Shown one piece after another: positions 38,835 through 63,152 of a stretch of 64,000 nt of DNA. The notes beneath the pieces were generated by a model, which did not search any database, was not told where the DNA came from, and saw nothing but the letters and a program-made list of their open reading frames with translations. The stretch comes from Rhodobacter sp. (GTDB lineage: Bacteria > Pseudomonadota > Alphaproteobacteria > Rhodobacterales > Rhodobacteraceae). The position numbers were made by a program, and so were the translations under genes. Every line of letters starts with the position of its first letter. Position 1 is the first letter of the stretch. Location of the stretch: positions 62,001 to 126,000 of the forward strand of contig JAIXUH010000039.1 of NCBI GenBank assembly GCA_027484145.1. The letters run 5' to 3'.

Positions 38835-38847
38835 GATGCCCTTTTGG

Positions 38848-38868
38848 TTGATGCGTTTGGTGCATCAA
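38848..38868. promoter_or_regulatory. LysR-type operator (perfect 7-7-7 inverted repeat)
   Basis: TTGATGC, seven bases, then GCATCAA: a perfect dyad containing the T-N11-A core of LysR-family binding sites. It lies in the 154-bp gap between the LysR gene and the divergent isochorismatase-type hydrolase, close to the LysR start as expected for autoregulation. Confidence 0.7.
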
Positions 38869-38988
38869 TGATTGCTGACATGGCAATTCCACTGCGTCAA
38901 TCCGGGTGTGATGATCCGGGAAAGGCCAGCACTTCAGCCTTGGTATCATCATTGCGGGCCTTGCCCTGCCGACAAAAGGACACTTTGA

Positions 38989-39711: not shown

Positions 39712-39786
39712 GCCGAACCTTGGGGCTGGGCCACAGGTCCGGCCCCGGTGCTGCACATGCAACTGGCGGGCGACGGGGACAGGGTA

Positions 39787-41865: not shown

Positions 41866-41883
41866 CGTCAGGGAATACAGACC

Positions 41884-47570: not shown

Positions 47571-49649
47571 ATGCAAAATCAATATCGTCTTGGCATCGAC
47601 GCGGGTGGCACCTTCACCGATTTCATCCTTGCCGACCGTGAAGGTGAGGTGCGCATCTTCAAGGCGCTGTCCACCCCGCAAGACCCGACGCAAGCCATCC
47701 GCAACGGCTTGAAGCTGATCGAGGAAGAAACCGGGATCACCGCGCATCAGATCGTGTCCAACGCCGATCTGTGCATCAACGGCACCACCGTGGGCCTGAA
47801 CGCGCTGATCCAGCACAAGGGCGCCAAAACCGGGTTGATCGCCACCAAGGGGCATGAGGACAGCATTGAAATTCGTCTTGGGCACAAGGAAGACGGCTAT
47901 CGCTATGACCCGGAATATCCGCCCGCGACCATGCTGGTGCCGCGCTATTTGCGGCGCGGGATTTCGGAACGGGTGATTTCGACTGGCGCTGTGCACACAC
48001 CGATGAACGAAGATGATGTGCGCGATGCCTGCCGTCACTTCATTCGTGAAGGGGTCGAGGCGGTGGCAATCTCCTTTGTCTGGTCCGTCCTGCACCCGGC
48101 ACATGAATTGCGTGCGGCCGAAATCGTGCGCGAGATGATGCCAAACGTCCGCCTGACGGTGGGGTCGCACCTTTACCCTCAGGTGCGCGAATACACCCGC
48201 ACGTCAACGGCCGTGGTCAACGCCTATCTGTCGCCGATCCTGTCGGACTATGTCGAGGCGGTGGACGGCTATTTCGCAAGCCTTGGCGCGAAGAATCCGG
48301 TGCGATACTTCCAGTCGAACGGCGGGTTGGCCTTGGGGTCTGTAGTGTCCGATCAGTCGGTCTATGCGATCAACTCGGGCCCGGCCTCGGCCCCGCAGGC
48401 GGCACTATACATCGGCGAGCCCTGGGGGCTGCAGAACATCATCACTGTCGACATGGGTGGCACGTCGTTCGACATTACCCTGACGCGGGATGGCCGTGCG
48501 AATGTGTCGAAGAATATCGACTTCCTGCGCTATCGCATCGGGATTCCGATGATTCAGGTGGAAACGCTGGGCGCGGGCGGCGGATCGATCGGCTGGATCG
48601 ACAGTATGGGTCTGCTCCAGATGGGCCCGCAGTCGGCCGGGTCTGAACCGGGGCCTGCCTGCTATGACCAAGGCGGTGATAAGCCGACGACGACCGATGC
48701 TAACCTTGTACTGGGGTATCTGAACCCCGATGGTCTGGTCGGCGGGCGGTTGCCGCTGCACACGGGGCGGGCGCGGACGGCAATTCAGACAGGCTTGGCT
48801 GATCCGCTGGGCCTGAGCGTGGAACAGGCCGCCTATGGCATGTACACCATCGTCAACAACAACATGGTCAACGCCATTCGACGCGTCTCGGTAGAGCGCG
48901 GCTATGACCCGCGCGATTTTGTGCTGAACTGCGCGGGCGGGGCAACGGGCGCGCATATCACGGCGCTTGCACGGGAAATGGGCATCACCCGCATTCTGGT
49001 GTCAAAACTCGCCTCGGGGCTCTGTGCCTACGGGCAGATCATCTCGGACGTCAAGTACAACTACATGGCCCCTGCGCCCGTGCGGTTGGAAGGGGCGGCC
49101 TCGGCCGCCAAGCTGGACGCGCTGTTCACCGGGCTGGAAACCAAGGGCGAGGCGGACCTGACGCGCGACGGGTTTGAGCGTGACCGCATTTCCATCCGTC
49201 GCAGTCTGGACATGCGCTATGTAGGGCAGGTGCACGAATGCACCGTCGACATCGATCCTTTCACGCTGGACGAGGCGGCGCTGGAGAAGCTGAAGGCCGC
49301 CTTCCACGCCCGACATGAGGAGCTTTACACCTATTCCGAACCGCAAAGCGTGGTCGAGGTGGTGAACGTAGAGAGCGCGATCCTTGGCCGCGTGGACCGA
49401 CCACGCCGCATGACGATTGCGGGGGGCAAGGGGGCTGACAGCGCAAAGTCGGGCACACGGCCGATGATCTTTGCCGCCAATGGTGAGACGGTGGACACGC
49501 CGGTCTACGCCGGCGCGGGCCTTGGCGCAGGGGACAGGATCTCTGGCCCGGCGGTGATCGAAGAAGTGACGACAACCATTGTCATTGAACCGGGCTGGAC
49601 GGCAGAGTTGCACGAGTCGGGCGTTTATGTGCTTGATTGGCAGGGCTAA
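47571..49649 (+). CDS. hyuA: Hydantoinase/oxoprolinase family protein, subunit A (copy 3)
   Basis: A 692-residue HyuA subunit. LGIDAGGTFTDFILADREG is the N-terminal phosphate-binding motif; TVDMGGTSFDITLTRDG and GPACYDQGGDKPTTTDANL are the second-domain blocks. It differs throughout from copies 1 and 2, and the gene order is hyuB-hyuA instead of hyuA-hyuB. It begins 11 bases after the hyuB stop and ends 15 bases before pxpA. Confidence 0.92.
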   Translation: MQNQYRLGIDAGGTFTDFILADREGEVRIFKALSTPQDPTQAIRNGLKLIEEETGITAHQIVSNADLCINGTTVGLNALIQHKGAKTGLIATKGHEDSIEIRLGHKEDGYRYDPEYPPATMLVPRYLRRGISERVISTGAVHTPMNEDDVRDACRHFIREGVEAVAISFVWSVLHPAHELRAAEIVREMMPNVRLTVGSHLYPQVREYTRTSTAVVNAYLSPILSDYVEAVDGYFASLGAKNPVRYFQSNGGLALGSVVSDQSVYAINSGPASAPQAALYIGEPWGLQNIITVDMGGTSFDITLTRDGRANVSKNIDFLRYRIGIPMIQVETLGAGGGSIGWIDSMGLLQMGPQSAGSEPGPACYDQGGDKPTTTDANLVLGYLNPDGLVGGRLPLHTGRARTAIQTGLADPLGLSVEQAAYGMYTIVNNNMVNAIRRVSVERGYDPRDFVLNCAGGATGAHITALAREMGITRILVSKLASGLCAYGQIISDVKYNYMAPAPVRLEGAASAAKLDALFTGLETKGEADLTRDGFERDRISIRRSLDMRYVGQVHECTVDIDPFTLDEAALEKLKAAFHARHEELYTYSEPQSVVEVVNVESAILGRVDRPRRMTIAGGKGADSAKSGTRPMIFAANGETVDTPVYAGAGLGAGDRISGPAVIEEVTTTIVIEPGWTAELHESGVYVLDWQG

Positions 49650-49664
49650 GGCGGGGGCGTGGAC

Positions 49665-50384
49665 ATGACGATCATCAATTGTGACATGGGCGAAGGCTTT
49701 GGCCTTTACCGCATCGGTGACGACGAGGGCTTGATGCCGCTGATCGATGTGGCCAACGTGGCCTGCGGCTTTCATGCCTCAGACTTCAACCACATGCGGC
49801 GCACAGTGCAACTGGCCAAGCAGCATGGCGTCAAGGTTGGCGCGCACCCATCCTTGCCCGACCTGCAGGGCTTTGGCCGGCGCGAGATGAAGATCGGGCG
49901 CGAGGAACTGACCAACTGCATGATCTACCAGGTCGGTGCGCTGAAGGGGTTTCTGGACGCCGAAGGCATGGTCCTGAACCACATCAAGCCGCATGGGTCC
50001 CTCTATGGCATGGCCGCGCGGATGGAAGATGTGGCCCACGCCGTGGCCGATGCGGCAGATGTCTACAAAGTGCCGCTGTTTGGCATGGCGGGCACCTTGC
50101 ACGAAAAGGTCTATACGGCGCGCGGCCATAGCTTTGTGTCCGAGTTTTATGCCGATCTTGACTATAACGACGAAGGTGGTCTGATAATCACCCGCGAACA
50201 TGCCGCGACGGATGAGACCTATGCCGCAGCAGCCTGTGTGCGTGCGATCACCGAAGGCAAGGTTGCCAGCGTGGGCGGAAAGGATGTGGCCGTGCGGGCT
50301 GATGCAATCTGCGTGCATTCGGATACACCCAACGCCGTTGCGGTCGCGCAGGCGGTGCGTGCGGCAATTGCCGCCTATCGCTAA
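49665..50384 (+). CDS. pxpA: 5-oxoprolinase subunit PxpA (LamB/YcsF family)
   Basis: A 239-residue LamB/YcsF-family protein. The signature blocks are INCDMGEGFGLYRIGDDEG, VACGFHASDF, VGAHPSLPDLQGFGRREM and IKPHGSLYGM. In E. coli PxpA works with PxpBC to hydrolyse 5-oxoproline with ATP. ATG 49665 is preferred to GTG 49659. Here pxpA is separated from pxpB/pxpC by a biotin carrier and a biotin carboxylase, an arrangement suggesting a carboxylation-dependent variant of the reaction. Substrate may be 5-oxoproline or another cyclic amide. Confidence 0.9.
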   Translation: MTIINCDMGEGFGLYRIGDDEGLMPLIDVANVACGFHASDFNHMRRTVQLAKQHGVKVGAHPSLPDLQGFGRREMKIGREELTNCMIYQVGALKGFLDAEGMVLNHIKPHGSLYGMAARMEDVAHAVADAADVYKVPLFGMAGTLHEKVYTARGHSFVSEFYADLDYNDEGGLIITREHAATDETYAAAACVRAITEGKVASVGGKDVAVRADAICVHSDTPNAVAVAQAVRAAIAAYR

Positions 50385-50415
50385 GAAAACAAAGAAAAGA
50401 CAGGGAAGCCAGACG

Positions 50416-50652
50416 ATGACCAAACAAATCCTTTCACCGTTGCCCGGCACGTTCTATCGCCGCCCTTCGCCGGATCAGCCGGTGTTCAAAGAGGTGGGCG
50501 ATACCGTGGCCGTCGGCGATGTGATTGGCCTGATCGAGGTGATGAAGTCGTTCAACGAGGTGCAGGCCGATCAGGCAGGCACCCTGACCGCTTTTGTTGC
50601 CGATGACGAAGAACCTGTGATGGCAGGTCAGGCTTTGGCCGAACTGAACTGA
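50416..50652 (+). CDS. Small biotin carboxyl carrier protein
   Basis: A 78-residue single-domain biotinyl carrier. The biotinylation motif is EVMKSFNEV with K44; SPLPGTFYRRPSPDQP at the start is the usual lipoyl/biotinyl-domain opening. It has no linker or N-terminal domain, so it is about half the size of fatty-acid AccB. It ends 2 bases before the biotin carboxylase gene and so serves that enzyme; its carboxyltransferase partner is probably PxpB/PxpC rather than AccAD. Confidence 0.92.
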   Translation: MTKQILSPLPGTFYRRPSPDQPVFKEVGDTVAVGDVIGLIEVMKSFNEVQADQAGTLTAFVADDEEPVMAGQALAELN

Positions 50653-50654
50653 CC

Positions 50655-52037
50655 ATGGCGATCACCAAGCTGCTGGTTGCCAATCGGGGCGAAATCGCGG
50701 TCCGGATCATTCGGGCCGCGCGTGAGCTGGGTTTGAAAACCGTGCAGGTTCACAGCGCCGCCGATACGGAAAGTCTGGCCGTGAAAATGGCGGATGAGGC
50801 GGTGAACATCGGCCCGCCGATGGCGTCAAAATCCTATCTGAACATCGCCAATATCCTGAAAGCGGCGGCCGATACGGGGGCCGATGCCGTGCACCCCGGA
50901 TATGGCTTTCTGGCCGAGAATGCCGACTTTGCCGATGCGGTGCAGGCCGCCGGTCTGTGCTGGATCGGGCCTGCGGGCGATGCCATCCGGCAGATGGGTG
51001 ACAAGGTGGCGGCCCGTGTTGCCGCACAGGCCGCAGGTGTGCCCGTTGTGCCGGGGTCGGACGGGCGGATTGATGACCCCGACCGTGCCCGCGCCATTGC
51101 TTTGGCTATCGGTTTCCCGGTGATGATCAAGGCGGCGGCCGGTGGGGGCGGGCGGGGCATCCGCATTGCCCACGATATGGAGGAATTTGACCGCCTGATG
51201 CCGCAAGCCAGTGCCGAGGCAAAATCGGCCTTTGGCGATGGTGGCCTGTATCTGGAAAAGGTCATCGAACGGGCGCGCCATATCGAGGTGCAGATTCTGG
51301 GCGACGGCACCCGCGCGATCCATCTGTTCGAGCGGGAATGTTCCCTGCAACGCCGCCGTCAAAAGGTTTGGGAAGAAGCGCCTTCGGCCAGTCTCCCGCA
51401 AGCCATGCGCGAGAAACTCTGCGCCTCGGCCGTGGCCTTGGCCGAAGCGGTGGGGTATCGCGGCGCGGGCACGCTGGAATATCTTTATGATGATGCCTCG
51501 GGCCAGTTCTATTTCATCGAGATGAACACCCGGATTCAGGTGGAACATCCCGTCACGGAAATGATCACTGGCGTTGATCTGGTGCGCGAAATGATCCGCG
51601 TCTGCGCTGGTGAACCGCTGCGATTTGCCCAAGACGACATCCGACTGAAAGGCCATTCCATCGAGGTGCGGATTTGCGCCGAAGACCCTGCGAAGAATTT
51701 TCAACCCGGTCCCGGCACGGTGACAGATATGATTGTGCCGGGTGGTGGCGGGGTTCGGTTCGATACCATGCTGTATCCCGGCTATCAGGTGCCGCCGTTT
51801 TATGACTCGTTGCTCGGAAAACTGATCGTCTGGGACGAAGACCGCGCGGCGGCGATCACCCGGATGGGCCGGGCCTTGCAGGAATTGCATGTGGGCGGTT
51901 TGCCCACCACCCGCGCCTTGCACCAGTTGCTGGCGCGCGACCCCGAGGTTCAGGCGGGCGCGTTTCATACGCGGTGGCTGGAACCCTGGCTGGAACAGAA
52001 TGCCCACAGGATCGGGACAGAGGAGACCAAGGAATGA
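50655..52037 (+). CDS. Biotin carboxylase (AccC-like)
   Basis: A 460-residue ATP-grasp biotin carboxylase. LLVANRGEIAVRIIRAARE is the N-terminal domain, AAAGGGGRGIRI the glycine-rich ATP loop, and EMNTRIQVEHPVTEMITG the catalytic/biotin site. It carboxylates the biotin of the adjacent carrier using ATP and bicarbonate. No accA/accD-type carboxyltransferase is present; instead its stop overlaps the pxpB start (ATGA), whose family is homologous to the carboxyltransferase half of urea carboxylase. So it is probably not for fatty-acid synthesis. Confidence 0.92.
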   Translation: MAITKLLVANRGEIAVRIIRAARELGLKTVQVHSAADTESLAVKMADEAVNIGPPMASKSYLNIANILKAAADTGADAVHPGYGFLAENADFADAVQAAGLCWIGPAGDAIRQMGDKVAARVAAQAAGVPVVPGSDGRIDDPDRARAIALAIGFPVMIKAAAGGGGRGIRIAHDMEEFDRLMPQASAEAKSAFGDGGLYLEKVIERARHIEVQILGDGTRAIHLFERECSLQRRRQKVWEEAPSASLPQAMREKLCASAVALAEAVGYRGAGTLEYLYDDASGQFYFIEMNTRIQVEHPVTEMITGVDLVREMIRVCAGEPLRFAQDDIRLKGHSIEVRICAEDPAKNFQPGPGTVTDMIVPGGGGVRFDTMLYPGYQVPPFYDSLLGKLIVWDEDRAAAITRMGRALQELHVGGLPTTRALHQLLARDPEVQAGAFHTRWLEPWLEQNAHRIGTEETKE

Positions 52038-52909
52038 CCACCAGATATTCCTTCGGCGGGGATGAGCACATCTTTGTCGAATGTGACGAGGAAATGTCGC
52101 TTGAGGCCTTCTTCAAGGGCCTGTCGATCACCAACGCGCTGAAGGCCGCCCAGATCAAGGGCGTGACCGAGATTTGCCCGGCCAACGCATCGTTTCAGGT
52201 GCGGTTCGACCCCGACGTGATTGCGCCTGACGACATGATGCGCGAACTGAAGGCGCTGGAAGCGGCGGCGCAATCTGCGCCTTCGACGCTGGAAACCCGC
52301 ATCATCGAAGTGCCTGTGTTCTATAATGATCCGTGGACACACGAGACGGGCCAGCGGTTCCGTGAGCGGCATCAGGACCCGACCTCGACCGATATCGAAT
52401 ACACCGCCCGGATCAACGGGCTGGACGGGATCGATGGCTTTATCAAGGCCCATTCGGGCGCGCCGTGGTTCGTGTCGATGGTGGGCTTTGTGGCAGGCTT
52501 GCCGTTCCTGTATCAGATGACGGACCGCAGCCGCCAGATTCAGTCACCCAAATACCTGCGCCCGCGCACTGATACGCCGCGCCTGACTGTCGGGCACGGT
52601 GGGTGCTTTGCCTGCATCTATTCGGTGCGCGGCGCGGGCGGCTATCAGATGTTCGGCATCACGCCGATGCCGATCTATGACCCGCACCAGACCACACCAT
52701 ATCTGCGCGATTTCATGTGCTTGTTCAAACCCGGCGACATCGTGAAGTGGAAACCGATCGACCGCGCCGAGTATGACCACACGGTGGCAGAAGTGGACGC
52801 TGGCCGCTGGATGCCGCGCATTGCGCCCGTGACCTTTTCGCTGGCCGAGTTTCAGGCCGATATCGATGGCACCAATGCACGCGTGATGGAGGCTTTGAAT
52901 GGCCATTAA
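52034..52909 (+). CDS. pxpB: 5-oxoprolinase subunit B / KipI-like carboxyltransferase-type subunit
   Basis: A 291-residue CT_C_D (AHS1) family protein. The family core is seen as MVGFVAGLPFLYQM, PRTDTPRLTVGHGG and YQMFGITPMPIYDP. It is longer than E. coli PxpB (about 218 residues) owing to an insert around residues 100-145 and a C-terminal tail (FKPGDIVKWKPIDRAEYD) like that of urea carboxylase. Start 52034 overlaps the biotin carboxylase stop by 4 bases, and the gene overlaps pxpC by 11 bases. It should form a heteromer with PxpC. Confidence 0.87.
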   Translation: MTTRYSFGGDEHIFVECDEEMSLEAFFKGLSITNALKAAQIKGVTEICPANASFQVRFDPDVIAPDDMMRELKALEAAAQSAPSTLETRIIEVPVFYNDPWTHETGQRFRERHQDPTSTDIEYTARINGLDGIDGFIKAHSGAPWFVSMVGFVAGLPFLYQMTDRSRQIQSPKYLRPRTDTPRLTVGHGGCFACIYSVRGAGGYQMFGITPMPIYDPHQTTPYLRDFMCLFKPGDIVKWKPIDRAEYDHTVAEVDAGRWMPRIAPVTFSLAEFQADIDGTNARVMEALNGH

Positions 52910-53867
52910 TGTGATCAAGCCGGGGCTTTCGACCACGGTACAGGATCTGGGGCGTCCGGGCTATTACCACATCGGGATTCCGACATCGGGCGGGATGGAT
53001 ATGCTGTCTTTGGCCGCGGCCAACCTTGCCGTGGGCAATCCGGCAGGGGCGGCGGTGCTTGAAGCCGTGTTCATGGGGCCAGAACTGGAGTTTACCGCCG
53101 ATGCGGTGGTGGCTGTAACGGGGGCCGACCTGCCGCCAAAGGTAGATGGCGTTGAGCAGGCGGGCTGGGAATCTTTCCCTGTGAAAAAGGGACAGGTCCT
53201 GAGCTTTGCCTTTCTGAAGGCCGGTGCGCGGGCCTATATCGCGGTGTCGGGCGGCATTGATGTGCCGGTCGTTCTGGGGTCGCGGTCGACCTATACGTTG
53301 GGGGCCCTCGGTGGGTTCGAAGGGCGCAAACTGCAGGCAGGCGATGTGCTGCCCGTTGGGCAGGGCGCGGGCAAGGCGGGGCGGTCCGTGCCTGCCGCGT
53401 TGCGCCGGATGCCGGGCGGCCCTGCCGAACTGCGGATGCTTCCGGGGCTGTACTGGCACCGTATCACCGAAGCGGCGGGCAAAGGTTTCTTCGAGGACAC
53501 GTGGAAGGTTGCACCCGAGGCTGACCGGATTGGCTATCGCTTCAAGGCGGGTCGCCCGCTGGAATTTGAGCCGCGCGAACAGCCCTTTGGCGCGGGCTCT
53601 GACCCGTCGAATATCGTGGATGCCTGCTATCCCTATGGGTCGGTGCAGGTGCCGGGCGGAACAGAACCCATCGTGCTGCACCGCGATGCTGTCTCAGGTG
53701 GGGGCTACTTCATGCTGGGCACGGTGGTTTCGGCCGATATGGACCTGATCGGCCAGTTGCAGCCGCATACGCCGACGCGGTTTGTCAAAGTGAGCATGGA
53801 ACAGGCGTTGCAGGCACGCCATGACCGTAAGGCCGTGCTGGACGGAATTGCTGCCGCACTGGCCTGA
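52899..53867 (+). CDS. pxpC: 5-oxoprolinase subunit C / KipA-like carboxyltransferase-type subunit
   Basis: A 322-residue CT_A_B (AHS2) family protein. INVIKPGLSTTVQDLGRPGY is the classic opening; YIAVSGGIDVPVVLGSRST and QVPGGTEPIVLHRDAVSGGG are further family blocks. It overlaps pxpB by 11 bases, fitting equal synthesis of the two subunits. It ends the hyu-pxp-biotin operon; a strong hairpin follows 7 bases after the stop. In the urea carboxylase fold this part builds the N-carboxylation site. Confidence 0.9.
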   Translation: MAINVIKPGLSTTVQDLGRPGYYHIGIPTSGGMDMLSLAAANLAVGNPAGAAVLEAVFMGPELEFTADAVVAVTGADLPPKVDGVEQAGWESFPVKKGQVLSFAFLKAGARAYIAVSGGIDVPVVLGSRSTYTLGALGGFEGRKLQAGDVLPVGQGAGKAGRSVPAALRRMPGGPAELRMLPGLYWHRITEAAGKGFFEDTWKVAPEADRIGYRFKAGRPLEFEPREQPFGAGSDPSNIVDACYPYGSVQVPGGTEPIVLHRDAVSGGGYFMLGTVVSADMDLIGQLQPHTPTRFVKVSMEQALQARHDRKAVLDGIAAALA

Positions 53868-53921: not shown

Positions 53922-55166
53922 ATGGTATCGCCTGGGGCCGAACTCGCCTCGCCTGCACAGATTCAACGTCGGCGGTTGCGGGTGCGTGGAACGTCGATTT
54001 CGCTGCTGGCTCAGGTGCATGATCAGGCCGAGGCCGACCTTGGCTTTGCCGTGGACTACGAGTTGCTGGAGTTTCCGACCTGTCAGCGCGTCGCCGCGAT
54101 GGAGCCGGAAGGCTATGATGTTTATGAACAATGCTTTCATAACCTTGATATCGTCTGGTTCTGGGGTGCCTTGCAGCCCATCGACATCAACCGCATCGAA
54201 GAATGGAACAAGATCAGCGATCTGGCCAAGCAGGGCGGGATCAGCAAATATGCGTGGCGCGGCCATGGTGATGCCCCGGTGCGCAAGCTGTATGTGCAGC
54301 CGGGCGGCTTTCTGGGGCCCAAACCATCGCGCTATATCAGCATGTTGCCGACTGTTCTGAATATGGACAGCTTCGGTTACGACACCCGCATTTTCGGGCG
54401 GGCGGAGCGGGGCCGGTCAAGCTGGTCATGGCTTTTGGACAAGCGCGCAAAGGGGCGGATTGCGCTCGTGGATGAACCCGCCATCGGGTTCTTTGACGCG
54501 GCCTTGGCGGCCGAAGCCTCGGGAGAGTTGGAGTTTGCCGATATCGGCAACATGACGATCGAAGAGATAAATGCGCTGATGGCCCTGTTGGAAGATCGTC
54601 GTCGCCAAGGGTATTTCTGCGGTGCGTGGCGCGATGGGGATCAGGCCGCGCAACTTGTGCGGGACCGCAACGTGGCCGCGCAAAGCATGTGGTCGCCGGT
54701 CTATGGCAAACTGGGGCCCGAGTTGCAGAATTTTGCCGAAGCCGAACCCGCCGAGGGCTACAGGGCGTGGCATGGCGGGGCGAGTTTGTCGCGCTACCTG
54801 GCCGGGGCCGAACTGGACATGGCCTATGAGTATCTTAACTGGTGGCTCAGCGGGTTTGCCGGTGCGGTCATGGCGCGGCAGGGCTATTACATCTCCAATC
54901 CTGACCGCAGCCGCGCCTATCTGACCCCGGCCGAATGGGCCTATTGGTATGATGGCGCCCCCGCTGCCACGGATCTGCCCGGACCCGCCGGGGAAATGGT
55001 AGTGCGCGCCGGCAGCCGCCGGCCGGGCGGCACTTATGAAGAACGCGCGAGCCGTATCGCCATCTGGAACACCGTGATGGATGAATACAATTATGCGGCG
55101 CGGGCCTGGGACAGGTTCATTGCCCGCGTTCATGACAGCGCGTCAGGCGACGGAGGTACCGTATGA
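53922..55166 (+). CDS. Solute-binding-protein homologue without export signal (putative intracellular sensor)
   Basis: A 414-residue protein related to polyamine-type (PotD-like) binding proteins. Its C-terminal part (WWLSGFAGAVMARQGYYIS, then PAEWAYWYDGAPA, residues 307-355) parallels the exported binding protein at 60753 (YWLSGGPAVAVSEQGYYS, PEKYAFWYEGAPW), as does PTVLNMDSFGYD (143-154) with PTVYNFDSIGYR. Unlike that protein it has no Tat or Sec signal: the N-terminus is MVSPGAELASPAQIQRRRLR. AAGGA lies 7 bases before the ATG. Its stop overlaps the GntR start by 4 bases. It may bind imported ligand in the cytoplasm and modulate the regulator; this is inference. Confidence 0.8.
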   Translation: MVSPGAELASPAQIQRRRLRVRGTSISLLAQVHDQAEADLGFAVDYELLEFPTCQRVAAMEPEGYDVYEQCFHNLDIVWFWGALQPIDINRIEEWNKISDLAKQGGISKYAWRGHGDAPVRKLYVQPGGFLGPKPSRYISMLPTVLNMDSFGYDTRIFGRAERGRSSWSWLLDKRAKGRIALVDEPAIGFFDAALAAEASGELEFADIGNMTIEEINALMALLEDRRRQGYFCGAWRDGDQAAQLVRDRNVAAQSMWSPVYGKLGPELQNFAEAEPAEGYRAWHGGASLSRYLAGAELDMAYEYLNWWLSGFAGAVMARQGYYISNPDRSRAYLTPAEWAYWYDGAPAATDLPGPAGEMVVRAGSRRPGGTYEERASRIAIWNTVMDEYNYAARAWDRFIARVHDSASGDGGTV

Positions 55167-56146
55167 TCCGGTCCGTCAATCCGTTCGCCCAAGAACCGCG
55201 CTATGAACTGGTGACGCGCGTCCTGCGCACGAACATCCAGCGCGGCACCCTGCCAGAAGGGTTGGTGCTGCTGGAAGGGCCGATTGCGGCGGTGATGCAG
55301 ACCAGCCGTGGCCCGGTGCAGGCGGCCTTGCGGCAGCTTTTGTCCGAAGGGGTTGTGCGCCGTTTTGATGGCCGCGGCTATCTGGTGGGGGCCGAGGGCA
55401 AGGACATTGCCCCCATCCGCCGCGATCTTGGTGAGTTCAACCTTGAGATTCCGGATGATGTGGATGATGCGCTGCAAACGCGTGGCACATGGCGGCATGT
55501 CTATGACGAGGTCGAGGAGCAGGTTGCTTCGTGCCAGATCTTTGGCGAATTCCGGATCGTTGAAACCGAGTTGTCCGATTATCTGGGGGTCAGCCGGACG
55601 GTGGCCCGCGACGTTCTGGCCCGGTTGCAAGAGCGCGGCCTGATCCGAAAAAGTGCAAGCTCGCATTGGATTGCGGGGCCCTTGACGGCGCGCACCGTGC
55701 GCGAAAAGTTCGAGCTTCGCAGCATCATCGAACCGGCTGCGTTACGTCTGGCGGCGCCACATATTCGCTACGCCGATGTCGAGGATCTTTTGGACCGGAT
55801 CGATTCGGGTGCTAAGCTAAGTTCAGAGTTGCTGAGCGATGCGCTCTTGGAACTTTGCATCGCGCAGGCACCGAACACTTCGCTGGTGGACATGGTTCGC
55901 AGCAACAGGCTGCTGCTGACCTCTGTCAACCGGGCACTGACTCTGCTTGGCCTTCCGAACGACGAAGCAACAATTGACCAGTACCGCACGCTTTTCGACC
56001 TTGTCGCCCGCCATCCTATTGACTCTGCATCAGAATATCTGCGCGACCATTTGCAGATCATGGCAAGGCGCAGTCTGGCAAGAATGAAGATCGTGGCCGT
56101 TATCCGCGAGACGGGCGAATTCGCTCCCTATCTTTTGCCGCAGTAA
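55163..56146 (+). CDS. GntR-family regulator with two winged-helix domains and an FCD-like domain
   Basis: A 327-residue regulator. A first winged helix spans about residues 14-77 (RGPVQAALRQLLSEGVVRRF, GRGYLVG) and a second about 110-172 (SDYLGVSRTVARDVLARLQE, RGLIRKSASSHWIAG). A helical FCD-type effector domain follows (ELRSIIEPAALRLAAPHIRY). Most FadR/FCD proteins have only one winged helix. The start overlaps the binding-protein homologue by ATGA, so the two are made together. A 28-bp palindrome with a GTATAC core begins at its stop codon, ahead of the importer operon it probably controls. Confidence 0.87.
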   Translation: MIRSVNPFAQEPRYELVTRVLRTNIQRGTLPEGLVLLEGPIAAVMQTSRGPVQAALRQLLSEGVVRRFDGRGYLVGAEGKDIAPIRRDLGEFNLEIPDDVDDALQTRGTWRHVYDEVEEQVASCQIFGEFRIVETELSDYLGVSRTVARDVLARLQERGLIRKSASSHWIAGPLTARTVREKFELRSIIEPAALRLAAPHIRYADVEDLLDRIDSGAKLSSELLSDALLELCIAQAPNTSLVDMVRSNRLLLTSVNRALTLLGLPNDEATIDQYRTLFDLVARHPIDSASEYLRDHLQIMARRSLARMKIVAVIRETGEFAPYLLPQ

Positions 56147-56173
56147 AACGGCTTACGTATACATAAACCGTTT
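56146..56173. promoter_or_regulatory. 28-bp near-perfect palindrome with GTATAC core, probable GntR operator
   Basis: The two halves AAACGGCTTACGTA and TACATAAACCGTTT are inverted copies with two mismatches, centred on GTATAC. FadR/FCD-type GntR regulators often bind TGTATACA-like palindromes. It begins at the last base of the gntR stop and precedes the importer operon. AT-rich arms make it a poor terminator, so an operator is preferred. Confidence 0.65.
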
Positions 56174-56269: not shown

Positions 56270-56300
56270 TTGACAGAGATACAAAATCGCTATGTTATAC
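56270..56300 (+). promoter_or_regulatory. Putative sigma70-type promoter for the polyamine-type importer operon
   Basis: TTGACA (56270-56275) with TATGTTATAC (56291-56300) offers a -35/-10 pair at 15-19 bases depending on the hexamer chosen. It leaves an untranslated leader of about 120 bases to the GTG at 56426. Palindromic candidate operators lie 50-125 bases upstream. Confidence 0.4.
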
Positions 56301-56425
56301 GAACAACAGTTTTTCGGGTCCCAGTGGCGCGATATGTCGTGTGCCGTGTTGGATGCGAAGGCTGTCGATGGACCGGAGGGTGGCCTGCGCAATGCGCTGT
56401 CGCCCTGATCTCGAATGAGGTGGTG

Positions 56426-57499
56426 GTGGAAACGGCAGTTTTTCGGCTGGACGGTGTGACCAAGCGCTATGGCGACCTGCTGGCGCTGGATCAGGTAACG
56501 CTGGACGTGGGCGTAAATGAATACGTCTCATTCCTTGGGCCGTCCGGTTCTGGAAAGACCACGCTTTTGCGCGTCATCGCCGGGTTCGAAGCCCCCGATA
56601 CGGGGCGCGTCTTCTTTGAGGGCCGCGATATCACCCATCTGCCCGCGCATGAGCGTGGGATCGGCTTTGTTTTCCAGAACTTTGCGTTGTTTCCGCACCT
56701 GACCGTCCGGCAGAATGTCGGTTTTGGTCTGGCGTTCGGGAAAAACCCGCTTCCAGCCGCCGAGGTGGACCGCCGCAGTGCCGAGATGATCGCCATGGTG
56801 GGGTTGGCGGGGATGGAGGATCGTGGTGTCGATCAGATTTCAGGCGGGCAGCGGCAGCGCGTCGCCTTGGCTCGGACGCTGGCGATGCAGCCGAAACTGG
56901 TTCTGCTGGACGAACCCCTCGGGGCGCTTGATGCGAACCTGCGTGGGCGGATGCGCAACGAACTGCGCGCCATTCGTGAAAGGCTTGGGGTGACGTTCCT
57001 GCATGTGACGGGCAGCGAGAACGAAGCGCTTGCCATGGGTGACCGGGTGGTGGTGCTGGACCGGGGCCGCATCATTCAGAGTGGCACTTCGGACGAGATT
57101 TATGACACGCCCGCTTCGCCAGATGTGGCGCATTACCTGAACCGCTTTAACCTGTTCGACGGCACCCTGGCCGATGGCCAGTTCCGCGGACAGTTCGGCA
57201 CCGTGGCTGTTCCGGGTGCGCGACGCGCGGCCCGTGATGTCTATGCCGTGGGCTATGACCGGATGCGGGTGCTGCCGCTGTCGTCATCGGCGGATGGACC
57301 CAAGCTGAAGGCGACCTTTGTCGCCTCGGAATATCTTGGGTCATCGATCATGAACTTTTTCGAGGTGGATGGCGGTGGCGTGGTCGAGATGGAGCATCAT
57401 CTGAGCCTTGGCGCGCCCGAAACCTATGCCCCGAAGCAGGATTACCTGCTGACGTGGAACCCCGAGCACGCCATCGTTTTCGGCCGGGAGGCGCGCTGA
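56426..57499 (+). CDS. ABC transporter ATP-binding protein, PotA-like, lacking the H-loop histidine
   Basis: A 357-residue ATPase. Walker A GPSGSGKT (38-45), Q-loop FVFQNFALFP, signature ISGGQRQR (138-145) and Walker B LVLLDEPLGALD are intact. The H-loop, normally VTHDQEEA, reads VTGSENEA: the switch histidine is glycine (G196, GGC at 57011). The other ATPase in this operon keeps it. A TOBE domain follows. GTG 56426 is chosen with TGAGG just upstream; the longer frame to 56270 runs through the presumed promoter. It overlaps the next permease by one base (TGATG). Confidence 0.87.
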   Translation: METAVFRLDGVTKRYGDLLALDQVTLDVGVNEYVSFLGPSGSGKTTLLRVIAGFEAPDTGRVFFEGRDITHLPAHERGIGFVFQNFALFPHLTVRQNVGFGLAFGKNPLPAAEVDRRSAEMIAMVGLAGMEDRGVDQISGGQRQRVALARTLAMQPKLVLLDEPLGALDANLRGRMRNELRAIRERLGVTFLHVTGSENEALAMGDRVVVLDRGRIIQSGTSDEIYDTPASPDVAHYLNRFNLFDGTLADGQFRGQFGTVAVPGARRAARDVYAVGYDRMRVLPLSSSADGPKLKATFVASEYLGSSIMNFFEVDGGGVVEMEHHLSLGAPETYAPKQDYLLTWNPEHAIVFGREAR

Positions 57500-58371
57500 T
57501 GTCTGACGCAACCGCATCTGTTCCGCGCAAGGACAACACCACCCGGTGGCTTCTGCTGCCCGGCATCATCTGGATGGCGCTGTTTCTGGTGACGCCGATC
57601 CTGATGATTGTTTATGTGTCGTTCTGGACGCAGACCACCTTCAACATCTCGTCCGATCCGACACTGGCCAGCTGGAAGCAGTTCTTTTCGTCCGACACCT
57701 ATATCGGGTCGTTGTGGACGACGATCCGCATCTGGCTGATCGTTCTGGCCACGACCTTTATCGTGGGCTATCCGACGGCGCTGTTCGTAGGTCTGCTGGT
57801 CAAGAGCAAGACGCTGTCGACCGTGCTTCTGGTCATCTGCGTGATCCCGTTCTGGACATCGTTCCTGATCCGCGTGCTGGCGTGGCGGCCCATGCTGGGC
57901 AAAGAAGGTGCGATCAACATCATCTTGCTGAAAGTCGGGATCATCCAGCAACCGATCGAGGTTCTGCTATTCACCGAGCTTTCGGTCATCATCGGGATGA
58001 CGCAAATCTATTGCGTGTTCATGGTTGGCCCCATCGCCTTCATGCTGGCGCGGATTGACCGCAACATCATCGAAGCGGCGCGTGATCTGGGCGCAGGCTT
58101 TGGCCGCATCTTCTGGAAGATCATCTTCCCGCTGTCGCTGCCCGGTGTGGTGGTGGGCGCGATCTTTGTCAGCGTGATGGTGCTGGGCGAATTCGCCACC
58201 TCGGGCGCGCTTTCGGGCCGCAAGGTGAACCTTCTGGGCAATATCATCGTCACGCAGGTGGGGTCGCTGAAATGGGCCATGGCTTCGGTCGTGGGGGTGA
58301 TCCTGACGGTGGTGATGGGGATCGTGATTGCAGGGTTCCTGCGAATCGTCGATCTGAAGCGGGAGTTGTAA
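57499..58371 (+). CDS. ABC transporter permease, PotB/PotH-like
   Basis: A 290-residue permease with about six membrane segments; the first is LLLPGIIWMALFLVTPILM. The EAA loop is NIIEAARDLGAGFGRIFWK then IIFPLSLPG. The ATG overlaps the ATPase stop in TGATG; an extension to 57454 is not needed. With the next gene (3-base gap) it builds the channel of a polyamine/opine-type (PotBC-like) importer. Confidence 0.92.
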   Translation: MSDATASVPRKDNTTRWLLLPGIIWMALFLVTPILMIVYVSFWTQTTFNISSDPTLASWKQFFSSDTYIGSLWTTIRIWLIVLATTFIVGYPTALFVGLLVKSKTLSTVLLVICVIPFWTSFLIRVLAWRPMLGKEGAINIILLKVGIIQQPIEVLLFTELSVIIGMTQIYCVFMVGPIAFMLARIDRNIIEAARDLGAGFGRIFWKIIFPLSLPGVVVGAIFVSVMVLGEFATSGALSGRKVNLLGNIIVTQVGSLKWAMASVVGVILTVVMGIVIAGFLRIVDLKREL

Positions 58372-58374
58372 GGG

Positions 58375-59226
58375 ATGGAATCGCGCGTTCTGAAACCCAT
58401 CCTCGGCGTCTATGTCGCCGCTTTTCTGCTGTTCCTCTATGGCCCCTTTGTTGTGCTGACGATCATTTCGTTCCAGCAGGGGCCCGAAGGTGGACCACAG
58501 TTTCCGATCATCGAATGGTCGACCTATTGGTATAAGCACATCTTCGGTTTGACCCCGCCGTCGCGCATCGCGCCATTGCCGGTGGGCGAGGCGCTGTTCC
58601 GGTCGCTGGTACTGGCCTTCATGACCATGGTCACATCCACCGTGCTGGGTGTGATGGCGGCGCAGGCGTTCCGTAAACGGTTCAAGGGTGCCAGTTTCGT
58701 GTTCTATCTGATCGTGCTGGGCATGATGGTGCCGGGTGTTTTGACCGGTCTTGGCACATCGCTTCTGGCCAACAACATCATCGGCATCGAACGGCATTGG
58801 TATACGACCGCCTTTGCAACCCATGTCGCCTATACCTTCCCCTTTGCCTTCCTTGTGATGCTGGCGATCCTGAACCGCTTTGACGCCTCGGTCGAAGAGG
58901 CGGCGTGGTCGCTGGGCGTCAGCCCGTGGATGACGTTCCGCAAGATCACTTTTCCGCTGATCTTTCCGGGCGTGCTGTCGGCGATGCTGTTTGCCTTTAC
59001 GCTGTCCTTGGATGAATTCCCGCGCACGCTGTTTGCATCGGGCCGGGATCAGACGCTGCCGCTGGCGATTTACGGCACCTTCTCGGTCGAGATTCACCCC
59101 AACATCTTTGCCTTCGGTGTGCTGACCACACTGTTCTCATTCGCGCTGTTGTCGGTCTACGGCATCCTGATGGCGCTGTCCGTGCGTCGCGCCAAGAAGA
59201 TGGCGATGCAGGAGGATATTGTATGA
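58375..59226 (+). CDS. ABC transporter permease, PotC/PotI-like
   Basis: A 283-residue permease with about six membrane spans, beginning LGVYVAAFLLFLYGPFVVL. The EAA loop reads SVEEAAWSLGVSPWMTFRK then ITFPLIFPG. It is second partner of the 57499 permease. The stop overlaps the start of the first short-chain dehydrogenase (ATGA), tying transport to enzyme production. Confidence 0.92.
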   Translation: MESRVLKPILGVYVAAFLLFLYGPFVVLTIISFQQGPEGGPQFPIIEWSTYWYKHIFGLTPPSRIAPLPVGEALFRSLVLAFMTMVTSTVLGVMAAQAFRKRFKGASFVFYLIVLGMMVPGVLTGLGTSLLANNIIGIERHWYTTAFATHVAYTFPFAFLVMLAILNRFDASVEEAAWSLGVSPWMTFRKITFPLIFPGVLSAMLFAFTLSLDEFPRTLFASGRDQTLPLAIYGTFSVEIHPNIFAFGVLTTLFSFALLSVYGILMALSVRRAKKMAMQEDIV

Positions 59227-59951
59227 CCGCCAGCGTTGCGATCGTCACAGGTGCGGGGTCAGGCATCGGGCAGGCCATTGCGCTGCGGTTGGCAGAGGAT
59301 GGCTATAAGGTGCTGGTCAACGACTTTCGCGCCGATGCGGCGGCGGCCGTTGCGGCCCAGATCGGGGCAAACGCTGTATCCGTCGGCGGGGATGTTTCGG
59401 TTGAATCCGACGTGGCCGCCATGGTTGCGGCCTGTGAGGCCGCCTTTGGCCCGGTGACGCATATGATCAACAACGCAGGCCATGTGCATCAGGGGCGGTT
59501 CACCGACCTGACCGTGCAGGATTTCGACCGTATGGTCGCAGTGCATCTGCGCGGCACGTTTCTGTGCACGCATGCGGTGATGGCGGGTATGCTGGCGCGG
59601 GGGCATGGCGTGGTCGTGAACGTCGCATCGCAACTGGGGCAAGTGGGTGGCATTGAGCTGGTGCATTATTCCGCCGCCAAGGCCGGGATCATTGGGATGA
59701 CCAAGGCGCTGTCGCGCGAAGTTTCGGCGCAGGGCGTGCGGGTCAATGCCGTGGCCCCCGGCCCGATCAACACCCCCCTCGTGCGCAGCCTGTCCGAGGA
59801 TTGGCAGCGCGCCAAGGCTGCGCAATTGCCGTTGGGTCGGTTTGGCGAGCCCGAGGAAGTGGCCGCCGCCGTCGCCTTTTTGTGCTCACCCGCAGCATCG
59901 TTGTTTGTCGGGCAAACACTTGGTCCTAACTCCGGGGATGTGATGCTATGA
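59223..59951 (+). CDS. Short-chain dehydrogenase/reductase (SDR), copy 1
   Basis: A 242-residue classical SDR. Cofactor motif IVTGAGSGIGQAIALRL, NNAG at MINNAGHVHQG, catalytic Ser in NVASQLGQVG and YxxxK in VHYSAAKAGIIGMTKALS. Substrate type is an alcohol or ketone, not determinable further. It overlaps both neighbours by 4 bases (ATGA at each end), so it is part of the importer operon. Similar in size to the next SDR but only moderately alike. Confidence 0.92.
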   Translation: MTASVAIVTGAGSGIGQAIALRLAEDGYKVLVNDFRADAAAAVAAQIGANAVSVGGDVSVESDVAAMVAACEAAFGPVTHMINNAGHVHQGRFTDLTVQDFDRMVAVHLRGTFLCTHAVMAGMLARGHGVVVNVASQLGQVGGIELVHYSAAKAGIIGMTKALSREVSAQGVRVNAVAPGPINTPLVRSLSEDWQRAKAAQLPLGRFGEPEEVAAAVAFLCSPAASLFVGQTLGPNSGDVML

Positions 59952-60700
59952 CTGAAATCGTTCTGATCACTGGGTCGGGCATTGGCATTGGCCGGGCCAC
60001 CGCCCTCGCCTTTGGCAAAAGCGGCGCGCATGTCGTTGTGACCGATGTTCTGGAGGATGCGGGGCACGCGGTGGTGGCCGAGATTGTGGCAGCCGGGGGC
60101 AGCGCCGAGTTTCACCGGCTGGACGTGCGATCAACCGAAGGTGCCGATGCCGTTGTGGCAGCGGTCGAGGCAAAGCATGGACGGATTGATACGATCATCG
60201 CCAATGCCGGGATCGCGCATCGTGTGCCCTTGCCCGAACTGACCGATGAAAAGTGGGACTACACCTTTGATATCGATCTGAAGGGAATCTACCGCGTTGT
60301 CCGCCCCGCCTTGGCGGGGATGAAGGCGCGCAAATCCGGGTCGGTTGTGGCGCTGTCGTCGATCATGGGCATCGCCTATGGCTGGGACGAACACGTGCAT
60401 TATTCTGCGGCCAAGGCCGGTGTGGTGGGCCTTGTGCGCGGCCTTGCCGTCGAACTGGCACGCGAGGGCATCCGCGTGAACGGCGTGGCACCCGGCTACA
60501 TCCGCACCGCGCAGCTTTTGTCAAAGGAACACTCGTTGGGGCCTGATGCGGACAAGGCTGGCGAGTTCATTCCCATGGGGCGCATCGGCGAGCCTGAAGA
60601 TATCGCCGACGTGATCCTGTTTCTGGCATCCAACGGCGCCCGATACATGACCGGACAGGTCGTGGTCGTGGACGGAGGACTGCTTGTCGGGCGCTACTGA
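59948..60700 (+). CDS. Short-chain dehydrogenase/reductase (SDR), copy 2
   Basis: A 250-residue classical SDR with LITGSGIGIGRATALAFG, the catalytic serine in VALSSIMGIAYGW and VHYSAAKAGVVGLVRGLA. The C-terminus VVVDGGLLVGRY is typical. It is translationally coupled to SDR copy 1 and followed 52 bases later by the binding protein. Two SDRs in one importer operon suggest two sequential oxidations or reductions of the imported compound or a side chain. Confidence 0.92.
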   Translation: MTEIVLITGSGIGIGRATALAFGKSGAHVVVTDVLEDAGHAVVAEIVAAGGSAEFHRLDVRSTEGADAVVAAVEAKHGRIDTIIANAGIAHRVPLPELTDEKWDYTFDIDLKGIYRVVRPALAGMKARKSGSVVALSSIMGIAYGWDEHVHYSAAKAGVVGLVRGLAVELAREGIRVNGVAPGYIRTAQLLSKEHSLGPDADKAGEFIPMGRIGEPEDIADVILFLASNGARYMTGQVVVVDGGLLVGRY

Positions 60701-60752: not shown

Positions 60753-61979
60753 ATGAACGATATGTCTCTTTCCAGACGGAAGTTCCTGAAAGGAACGGCC
60801 GGTTCGGTTGCGGTTGCAGCCGCGGGGATGCCATTCCTTGGCGCCCAGCAAGCCTTTGCCGCTGCCCATCTTGAAGGGCAGGAACTGCGGACGGTCGGCC
60901 TTTCCGTGACCGTGCAAGAACGCATCCTGAACGAGTTCAAAGCAGCTTCGGGCGTGAAGGCTGTTTCGGGCAAGGCTGACATCTTCCCGAACACCCAGAC
61001 CGAACTGCTGTCGGGTTCTACCGCCTATGACTGCTGGGAAACCATCGGTGAGCGTCTGCCGTCGATCGTGCAGACCGGCCTTGTTTCGCCGATCCCGACC
61101 GCCAACCTGACCAACTGGACCGGCATTGGGGAAAGCTTCCTCAAGCCGTCCGACAAGTGGGAAGCCCGTGCCCAGATCGTGGGCCAGATCTGGACCGACG
61201 AAACCCAGACCGCGCTGAACATGGTTCCGACCGTGTATAACTTTGATTCGATCGGGTACCGCCCTGATCTGGTGGATGCGGAAGAAGCCTCGAACTGGTC
61301 GGCGCTGTTCGACCCCAAGTTCAAGGGCAAGACCGGCCTGAACGTGGACCCGCTGATTGCTTTCGGTCAGGCCGTCATGGCGATGAACGAACTGGGCCTG
61401 CTGGATGTGAAGAACCCCGGCAACCCGGACGCCGCCGCCATTGAAGAAGCGTCGAAGTTCCTGATCTCGAAGAAGAAGGAAGGCCAGTTCCGCGCCCTCT
61501 GGGGTGATTTTGGTGAACTGGTCAACCTGTTGGCCTCGGGCGAAATGATCATCGCCGACGCATGGCAGCCTGCTGTCATGGCCGTCAAGGCGCAGGGTGT
61601 TCAGTGCTCGTACGCCACAATGAAGAAGGGCTATCGTGGCTGGTCCATCGGGGTTTCGGCTCTGAAATCCTCGCCGAACCTTGATGCGGTCACCGCCTAT
61701 GCCGATTACTGGCTGTCGGGCGGCCCGGCGGTTGCTGTGTCGGAACAGGGCTACTATTCGCCCAACGACAAGGTCAAGGCCGTCATGGCACCCGAAAAGT
61801 ATGCCTTCTGGTATGAAGGTGCACCATGGGTTGGCCCGGAAGATCGCGGCATCAAGGAAGGCGATCTGCGCGACGGCGGCTCCTTGGCCACCCGTGCGGC
61901 CAACGTCGCTTACTGGCACCAGTGGCCAGATGAGTATGACCTGCTGATCACCAAGTGGGACGAGTTCCTCTCGGCCTGA
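60753..61979 (+). CDS. ABC transporter solute-binding protein, polyamine type (PotD-like), Tat signal
   Basis: A 408-residue exported binding protein. The Tat signal is MSLSRRKFLKGTAGSVAVAA, with cleavage near AFAAAHLEG. The mature protein has PTVYNFDSIGYRPD, SNWSALFDPKFKGKTGL and MIIADAWQPAVMAVKA. GGAGG (60741-60745) fixes the start at 60753. It is the periplasmic receptor of the 56426-63152 importer and the exported relative of the cytoplasmic homologue at 53922. A perfect hairpin follows its stop. Confidence 0.93.
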   Translation: MNDMSLSRRKFLKGTAGSVAVAAAGMPFLGAQQAFAAAHLEGQELRTVGLSVTVQERILNEFKAASGVKAVSGKADIFPNTQTELLSGSTAYDCWETIGERLPSIVQTGLVSPIPTANLTNWTGIGESFLKPSDKWEARAQIVGQIWTDETQTALNMVPTVYNFDSIGYRPDLVDAEEASNWSALFDPKFKGKTGLNVDPLIAFGQAVMAMNELGLLDVKNPGNPDAAAIEEASKFLISKKKEGQFRALWGDFGELVNLLASGEMIIADAWQPAVMAVKAQGVQCSYATMKKGYRGWSIGVSALKSSPNLDAVTAYADYWLSGGPAVAVSEQGYYSPNDKVKAVMAPEKYAFWYEGAPWVGPEDRGIKEGDLRDGGSLATRAANVAYWHQWPDEYDLLITKWDEFLSA

Positions 61980-61992
61980 TCCCATACCCTCT

Positions 61993-62019
61993 GCAGTCGG
62001 GGCCCCGTGCCCCGACTGC
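61993..62019 (+). terminator. Hairpin after the binding-protein gene (likely mRNA-stabilising or partial terminator)
   Basis: A perfect 11-bp stem (GCAGTCGGGGC with GCCCCGACTGC) and a 5-base loop starts 13 bases after the binding-protein stop. No T-tract follows, and the second ATPase gene continues 30 bases later. Such hairpins commonly raise the level of the binding protein relative to downstream genes. Confidence 0.7.
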
Positions 62020-62048
62020 GTCCTGCCCGTGAACCAAGGATCTTTCCT

Positions 62049-63152
62049 GTGGCCTATGACCTGCAACTTTCCCGGATTGGCAAGGTGTATGAGAACGGCA
62101 CGCCTGCCGTGATCGACTTCAACCTTGATGTTGAGAAGGGAGAGTTCATTGCCTTTCTTGGCCCGTCCGGCTGCGGCAAGACCACGACCCTGCGCATGAT
62201 TGCGGGGTTCGAGACCATCACGTCGGGCGATCTGTTGATCCGTGGCAAGCGGGTGAATGACCTGCCGCCGGAAAAGCGGCCCACATCGATGATCTTTCAG
62301 AATTACGCGCTGTTCCCGCACATGACGGTGCGGCAGAACGTGCATTTCGGGCTTGAGGTCAAGCAAACCCCAAAGGCCGAAGCCAACCGCAAAGTGGACC
62401 GCATTCTTGACAAACTGGGGCTGACCGAAGTGGCCGATGCCCGCCCTAACCGCCTGTCAGGTGGTCAGCGGCAGCGCATTGCCCTTGCGCGGTCACTGGT
62501 GGTGGAACCGGATATCCTGCTCTTGGACGAACCCTTGGGCGCGCTGGATGCGAACCTGCGCAAAAGCATTCAGAACGAATTGAAGCTTTTGCAACGTGAG
62601 CTGGGGATCACGTTCGTGTTCGTGACACATGCCCAGTCAGAAGCCTTGGCGCTGTCCGACCGGATCGTGGTGATGAACGCGGGCCGGGTCGAACAGATCA
62701 GCCCGCCGCGTGACCTGTATACGCGGCCACAAAGCCTGTTCGTGGCGCGGTTCATTGGCGCGAATACGCTGATTTCCGGTAAGGTGCGGCACAGCGGCGA
62801 CGGCAAAGTTCAGGTGGATTCGGCCTTTGGGCCGCTTGTCGCGCTTGAACATGGTGCAGCCGTGGCGGCGGGCGCGGCAGCGTCCATCGTCTTGCCAGCC
62901 GAGGCGATGCAGGTGGTTCCGGCGAGCATCTCGCAAGATGAGGTGCGCGCCACCTATGGGGCGAACGTCATTTCATGCCACATCAACCGGCTGCAACTTG
63001 TGGGCCATATCCTTCAGATTGCGCTGACGCTGCCCAACGGAGATTCCGTCAATCTGGAGGGGCATGCCGACAAATACCGCGGTCGTCTGGTGGCCGGCGC
63101 GCCGGGCTATATCGCCTGGTCCCCCGAAGCTGCGACGTTGATTGTGGAGTAG
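62049..63152 (+). CDS. ABC transporter ATP-binding protein, PotA-like (second ATPase, H-loop intact)
   Basis: A 367-residue ATPase with all motifs: GPSGCGKTTT, SMIFQNYALFPHM, LSGGQRQRIALA, ILLLDEPLGALD and the H-loop VTHAQSEALALSD. A TOBE domain follows (SIVLPAEAMQVVPASI). GTG 62049 has AAGGA eight bases upstream. It is the second ATPase in an operon with only one permease pair. It could pair with the 56426 product as a heterodimer or replace it. Confidence 0.9.
   Translation: MAYDLQLSRIGKVYENGTPAVIDFNLDVEKGEFIAFLGPSGCGKTTTLRMIAGFETITSGDLLIRGKRVNDLPPEKRPTSMIFQNYALFPHMTVRQNVHFGLEVKQTPKAEANRKVDRILDKLGLTEVADARPNRLSGGQRQRIALARSLVVEPDILLLDEPLGALDANLRKSIQNELKLLQRELGITFVFVTHAQSEALALSDRIVVMNAGRVEQISPPRDLYTRPQSLFVARFIGANTLISGKVRHSGDGKVQVDSAFGPLVALEHGAAVAAGAAASIVLPAEAMQVVPASISQDEVRATYGANVISCHINRLQLVGHILQIALTLPNGDSVNLEGHADKYRGRLVAGAPGYIAWSPEAATLIVE

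Follow-up and report, generated by a model that had tools for sequence, protein, structure and literature searches.

The window analysed here, a 64,000-nucleotide stretch of a Rhodobacter sp. contig, encodes a solute-binding protein with no recognisable export signal (cSBP), whose gene overlaps that of a GntR-family regulator with two winged helix-turn-helix (HTH) domains. The original prediction had proposed that this protein stays in the cytoplasm and works with the regulator, and our comparisons strongly support a cytoplasmic cSBP tied to the GntR: relatives lack signals, the two genes co-occur and are co-inherited, and the pair is retained through swaps of the transporter and enzymes around it. 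The most likely explanation, to which we give somewhat better than even odds, is that the pair forms a split intracellular sensor in which cSBP would bind the imported compound and control GntR at the importer promoter; its cellular location, its ligand, its contact with GntR, and the effect and sign of control are parts that we infer. The main rival is a role for cSBP as an enzyme or carrier. The relevant features of the window are as follows.

45811-47559 and 47571-49649, plus strand: HyuB and HyuA, a hydantoinase/oxoprolinase pair heading the gene run that ends in cSBP and GntR
49659..53867, plus strand: genes between HyuA and cSBP that we take to be YcsF/PxpA-, AccB-, AccC-, KipI/PxpB- and KipA/PxpC-like
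53922..55166, plus strand: cSBP, a signal-less solute-binding protein of predicted PotD/PotF fold, 414 residues (from the open reading frame, fold and relatives)
55163..56146, plus strand: GntR-family regulator with two winged HTH domains and a C-terminal FCD domain, the first two metal histidines replaced
56149..56170, no strand assigned: candidate GntR operator, the palindrome CGGCTTACGTATACATAAACCG of 22 bp, immediately following the GntR stop
56270..56312, plus strand: conserved block before the importer operon, with TTGACA at 56270-56275 and an ATAC-containing element at 56291-56312 (from an 18-locus alignment)
56429..59226, plus strand: ABC importer, comprising an ATPase (56429-57499) and two permeases (57499-58371 and 58375-59226)
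59223..60700, plus strand: two short-chain dehydrogenase (SDR) genes
60753..61979, plus strand: exported solute-binding protein of the importer, with a twin-arginine signal, a distant cousin of cSBP (27% identity)
62007..63152, plus strand: second ABC ATPase of the importer region (L039:11008-12153)

A binding protein without an export signal

An open reading frame check bore out the coordinates, the frame and the MVSPGAELASPAQ start originally given for cSBP, as well as its ATGA overlap with the GntR gene (ATG 55163-55165, TGA 55164-55166). The codon immediately 5′ of the cSBP ATG is an in-frame TGA, so no longer N-terminus is possible and the N-terminus MVSPGAELASPAQIQRRR is fixed; this rules out a mis-called start, and the relatives are alike.

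AlphaFold predicts a single-chain model with a mean pLDDT of 91.3 and a pTM of 0.88, for which Foldseek returned PotF, YdcS and PotD (TM-scores by query of 0.62-0.66 for PotF and YdcS), indicating that cSBP is a complete, full-length solute-binding protein with the two-lobed fold. The periplasmic PotD, PotF and YdcS thus share its predicted fold and its length, but cSBP differs from them in having no signal peptide, in being only 14-17% identical to the solved structures, and in not always lying beside an ABC importer. No Pfam family scored above its cut-off for cSBP, and NCBIfam gave only a weak match to YdcS. The likeness first noticed between cSBP and the neighbouring exported binding protein is not confined to the C-terminal half, since the two align over 391 residues at 26.9% identity. 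cSBP is closer to other Tat-exported binding proteins (33-40% identity) than to its neighbour (27%), and this low identity, together with their distance in the tree described below, rules out descent from that neighbour.

The 59 invariant columns in an alignment of 49 cSBPs suggest a kept function, with solute binding predicted. Compared with same-genus orthologs, dN/dS is 0.13 for both cSBP and the GntR gene, a rough value because dS exceeds 1; for cSBP this ratio, its full length and its retention over deep distances rule out a pseudogene. Residues 1-18 (window 53922-53975) form a short tail that is modeled with low confidence and keeps the motif aaPP..RR.LRV or aPAlh..GrP.LRV in cSBP and its relatives; it may serve as a docking peptide.

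When named genomes were scanned with a four-sequence alignment, 464 stretches encoding a relative emerged, and the best 80 were retained. They span the alpha-, beta- and gammaproteobacteria, with hosts that include Rhodobacterales, Rhizobiales, Inquilinus, Pelagibius, Burkholderia, Pseudomonas, Brenneria and Mangrovibacter. Cytoplasmic residence had been said to be refutable by a signal peptide encoded upstream in related genomes; none of these best 80 of 464 shows a Sec, Tat or lipoprotein signal as judged by hydrophobicity and by eye, not by SignalP (the N-terminus of L113, which starts 34 bases after its contig start, is partly visible). Upstream of the conserved LRVxGT there is either a short tail or an implausible extension, and an automatic “Tat” flag on L071, which sits in such an extension, is false. 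The N-termini of the cSBPs from 20 Rhodobacterales genomes, all inspected, likewise carry no signal. Exported-type paralogs encoded in the cSBP loci have a twin-arginine signal in 32 of 33 cases, the remaining one being a truncated ORF call.

In a tree of 127 binding proteins, 64 cytoplasmic sequences (L071 taken as one of them) fall on one side of a branch and 63 exported ones on the other, with an SH-aLRT of 96; this was a quick, unrooted search with 30 near-copy loci excluded beforehand, and the placement of long branches such as L032 and L033 is unsure. Among the 80 rows not counted as cytoplasmic, one is L071 and five have no automatic Tat flag, four of which show a twin-arginine motif by eye while L023 shows none.

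Taken at face value, these N-termini indicate that cSBP probably stays inside the cell. Export by an unrecognised route, for example by riding with a Tat-exported partner, would make it an ordinary periplasmic binding protein. The exported paralogs do use the Tat path, which moves folded proteins, but several clusters encode no exported binding protein of the family that could carry cSBP, and with all 80 relatives lacking a visible signal we find this reading very improbable.

Pairing with the GntR gene across changing clusters

In 35 of the best 80 loci (L040-L074), cSBP is followed directly by a double-winged-helix GntR gene, with an ATGA overlap in 32 cases, GTGA in one and a differing junction in two. 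The GntR gene also comes after cSBP in four Burkholderiaceae loci (L111-L114) and precedes it in G025 and on contig 26 of G001. In Rhizobiales and gammaproteobacteria it is mostly divergent and roughly 5-10 kb from cSBP, and in two Pelagibius-type genomes it lies about 25 kb away; in these clusters cSBP sits in the enzyme operon, a separation that counts against the split sensor discussed below. Of 22 genomes of cSBP loci that we examined, 21 contain such a GntR. The exception is L098, in whose 13 kb the only cluster genes visible are cSBP and an incomplete amidase gene.

Whether the pair is conserved together had been posed as a check. Among 390 Rhodobacterales genomes, cSBP was found in 20 and a GntR of this type in 26: both in 19, cSBP only in one, GntR only in seven and neither in 363 (Fisher p 1e-25, kinship ignored). 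The scan scored the best few candidates per genome, and the cut-offs were read off gaps in the lists: above 370 bits for cSBP, where exported proteins reach 345, and above 165 bits for GntR, where the next best scored 71. The only solitary cSBP (G306) lies in a decayed cluster with the CE4 hydrolase gene cut short. Retention of the GntR gene without its partner, named in advance as evidence against the pairing, does occur in seven of the 26 genomes with this type; these partnerless regulators lie beside other operons (in L218 also with YcsF- and KipA-like genes), are mostly more distant, and keep their FCD metal histidines.

The CE4 hydrolase of the cluster is a close relative of Helicobacter pylori HP0310 (3QBU, E 6e-145), which is reported to have no signal peptide and to be close to the PuuE allantoinase (PMC3084791). 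At an E-value of at most 1e-80 the hydrolase is found in 23 of the 390 genomes, 19 of which have both cSBP and GntR and four of which (G144, G191, G228 and G426) have neither; none has one alone. The CE4-importer clusters L257, L259 and L260 lack cSBP: L257 carries an ordinary single-HTH FCD GntR, and no GntR gene was seen among the gene labels of the L259 and L260 stretches examined. The similar cluster L261 does contain the pair, so that nature provides a swap of the regulatory part, and in G025 the hydrolase gene is in the same stretch as the pair. The CE4 proteins of G025, G144, G191, G426 and the window genome are 86-87% identical despite deep differences among the other cluster genes, which suggests exchange of the CE4 gene between clusters. 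Several CE4 relatives lie near CobW-type GTPases, perhaps metal suppliers.

Neighbouring genes vary more than the pair does. The transporter is of the ABC type in the 35 loci with cSBP directly before GntR, and an MFS permease in L210 and, by sequence likeness, in L212, L215 and L216; L225 and L226 have an NCS1 permease instead (Pfam identifications were made for L210, L225 and L226 only). As enzymes the clusters encode HyuA/B, either together with YcsF-Acc-Kip genes or on their own, an amidase plus the CE4 hydrolase, in many cases alongside a CobW-type GTPase, or CE4 combined with an amidohydrolase, and the pair persists across these transporters and differing hydrolases. Because several clusters have no ABC importer, the original proposal that the pair controls the importer is too narrow. 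The clusters with MFS or NCS1 transporters also rule out cSBP as an ABC importer component. They further bear on the idea that cSBP targets the transporter from inside the cell, for instance by inhibiting it in response to product: the window and the 35 loci do have cSBP next to genes of an ABC importer, but clusters that rely on an MFS or NCS1 permease, which has no binding protein, retain cSBP as well, and we consider such a role improbable.

A more serious competitor holds that cSBP evolved from a binding protein into a cytoplasmic enzyme or intermediate carrier of an amide, imide or lactam pathway and travels with GntR only as part of the cluster. Binding-protein folds have been turned into enzymes elsewhere, and in the gammaproteobacterial loci L210, L212 and L213 cSBP is the last gene of an enzyme run, apart from GntR, in which CE4, SDRs and, in L212, a CobW-type gene precede it. 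However, there are clusters with the same CE4 hydrolase in which both cSBP and the paired GntR are missing, and cSBP accompanies varied enzyme sets, such as the CapA-like HyuA (below the NCBIfam cut-off) and HyuB of L032. Pairwise distances point the same way, since those of cSBP track GntR and not CE4: across 22 clusters the cSBP–GntR correlation is 0.971 (partial correlation given CE4, 0.959), whereas CE4 distances correlate with those of cSBP and GntR at 0.58 and 0.55. Taking both CE4 and the amidase into account in 16 clusters, the partial correlations are 0.712 for cSBP–GntR, 0.413 for cSBP–amidase and 0.310 for GntR–amidase. Two of the four cluster sets (19 and 17 clusters) gave the contrary result, with 0.353 and 0.268 for cSBP–GntR and 0.955 and 0.948 for GntR–amidase; this arises because the L208 and L209 stretches end before cSBP, so that an exported paralog was taken instead. 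Without those two loci, the values for cSBP–GntR, cSBP–amidase and GntR–amidase are 0.760, 0.362 and 0.311 in 17 clusters, and 0.813, 0.074 and 0.503 in 15 clusters (L118 and L210 being one cluster). Such co-inheritance is likewise expected of any two genes travelling as a cassette. Weighing all of this, we judge the enzyme or carrier role unlikely, and prefer the split sensor.

The FCD domain and a sensor in two parts

The GntR protein comprises a GntR winged helix (residues 14-75), a second winged helix (approximately 110-170) and an FCD domain (183-298); both Pfam matches, PF00392 at 61.5 bits and PF07729 at 34.3 bits, are above their cut-offs. It shares the GntR winged helix and FCD domain with FCD-type regulators of the FadR subfamily such as VanR, TM0439 and PmiR, and its type differs from them in the extra winged helix between these domains, in the loss of most metal histidines, and in having a binding protein as partner. 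Double-winged-helix FCD GntRs also occur beside other operons, with no cSBP near, in L218-L224 and L230-L234.

Only the third of the three FCD metal histidines is kept in the window copy. In an alignment with a metal-type FCD protein, with identical sequences counted once, the first, second and third histidines are present in 14, 18 and 69 of 74 cSBP-linked GntRs, compared with 12, 12 and 12 of 12 unlinked ones (five of these 12 are additional copies from genomes that encode a linked GntR too, and one, L201, is on a contig of only 6.4 kb). All three are retained in 14 of the 74 linked proteins, namely gamma- and betaproteobacterial, Inquilinus and Pelagibius-type copies and those of L032 and G452/G455, and these could sense alone. 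The linked copies of G452 and G455 group weakly (56/91) with unlinked ones in a GntR tree from which 14 near-copy loci had been excluded.

FadR binds acyl-CoA. The DgoR work (PMC7674646) describes a divalent metal in the FCD domain that is needed for ligand binding and is held by three histidines in several relatives, with FadR lacking them. Loss of the histidines is thus no proof of a lost ligand, nor does it exclude the window protein from the FCD-type GntRs. FCD decay fits a transfer of sensing to cSBP but does not prove it.

The domain might instead sense its effector alone, with cSBP only buffering or tuning free ligand in the cytoplasm. The 14 linked GntRs with intact histidines favor this, as does PxpR, a one-HTH GntR regulator reported to bind 5-oxoproline directly with a KD of 726 nM (PMC13274462). 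Against it, most alphaproteobacterial pairs, the window copy included, lack a complete metal site, and a mere buffer fails to explain why the 23 CE4 genomes have both partners or neither. We therefore give sensing by FCD alone a small probability.

In the split sensor that we prefer, cSBP would fold in the cytoplasm and close around a small compound of the amide, imide or lactam type, or around a product of that compound. The open or closed form of cSBP would then bind the GntR protein and alter its grip on palindromes beside transporter or catabolic gene promoters. In ordinary relatives the FCD domain holds metal and effector, and we propose that metal histidines are gone from most linked copies because sensing has moved to cSBP. 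A broader history is conceivable at slightly less than even odds: a periplasmic-type binding protein returned to the cytoplasm a single time and assumed the sensing role of a double-winged-helix GntR whose FCD domain was decaying, and the two genes now travel as a cassette among the lactam, imide and hydantoin clusters of many Proteobacteria.

LacI- and LysR-type regulators carry a binding-protein-like sensor domain. The proposed pair would resemble them in having a cytoplasmic binding-protein fold do the sensing and govern the part that binds DNA, but those regulators are single chains, whereas two separate reading frames encode cSBP and GntR in the window and the loci examined, and the FCD domain is still present. 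In ChvE–VirA and NspS–MbaA, a solute-binding protein is a sensor subunit acting in trans on a membrane sensor; that happens in the periplasm, whereas the sensor proposed here would be cytoplasmic. PII and PipX are not binding-protein folds. Another parallel to the proposed pair is PlmA, a cyanobacterial GntR-like regulator which is contacted by a separate metabolite-sensing complex, PII–PipX (PMC5083789).

Our search of open-licence literature (top-ranked titles and abstract starts) covered signal-less or cytoplasmic binding proteins with regulators, two-HTH GntRs, regulators of lactam and oxoproline clusters, and the hydrolase; it returned no description of the cSBP–GntR pair or of the double-winged-helix FCD layout, which does not establish their absence from print. 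Binding proteins are assumed to be periplasmic, and the annotation “extracellular solute-binding protein” is attached to several plasmid-borne relatives of cSBP; if a cytoplasmic clade is widespread, such annotations would need correcting, and a transport part would be seen to become a regulator subunit without gene fusion. For lactams, imides or hydantoins the pair would make a natural biosensor in two parts, and an FCD metal site that decays next to a possible replacement partner makes transfer of sensing between proteins directly testable.

Candidate operator and gene neighbourhood

The cSBP–GntR pair closes a same-strand gene run from HyuB (45811), and the importer operon, with an ATPase start at 56429 chosen by homology, begins 282 bp after the GntR gene. 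The consensus of a 22-bp palindrome, tGatTTTTGcATgCAAAAatCa, was derived from 24 divergent intergenic regions that did not include the window. The site at 56149-56170 scores 10.4 against it, a value that none of 60 shuffles reached, and a single plus-strand site in the 64 kb, at 7230, ranks above it. In 36 held-out GntR–importer regions the palindrome beats all 60 shuffles in 14 and fails to do so in 22. It replaces an earlier operator idea, ATAC-N3-RTAC, which had no match in 14 divergent regions or in the window. The conserved block at 56270..56312 is likely the promoter of the importer and would include another, weak half-site resembling the operator, although a consensus promoter scan found no promoter in that region.

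Some neighbouring genes deserve mention. A gene named from its sequence as an AraC-type regulator (44602-45597, minus strand) is transcribed away from HyuB, and the catabolic run may therefore be under a regulator of its own in addition to GntR. A second pair, presumably HyuA/HyuB-like, lies at 39748-43668 with genes that we take to be isochorismatase-like and LysR-type (window 37932-43668), and two oxoprolinase-type systems are thus close together in the window. The HP0310/PuuE-like CE4 hydrolase gene (G000:C6:126556-127455) lies just beyond the window end and is part of the cluster.
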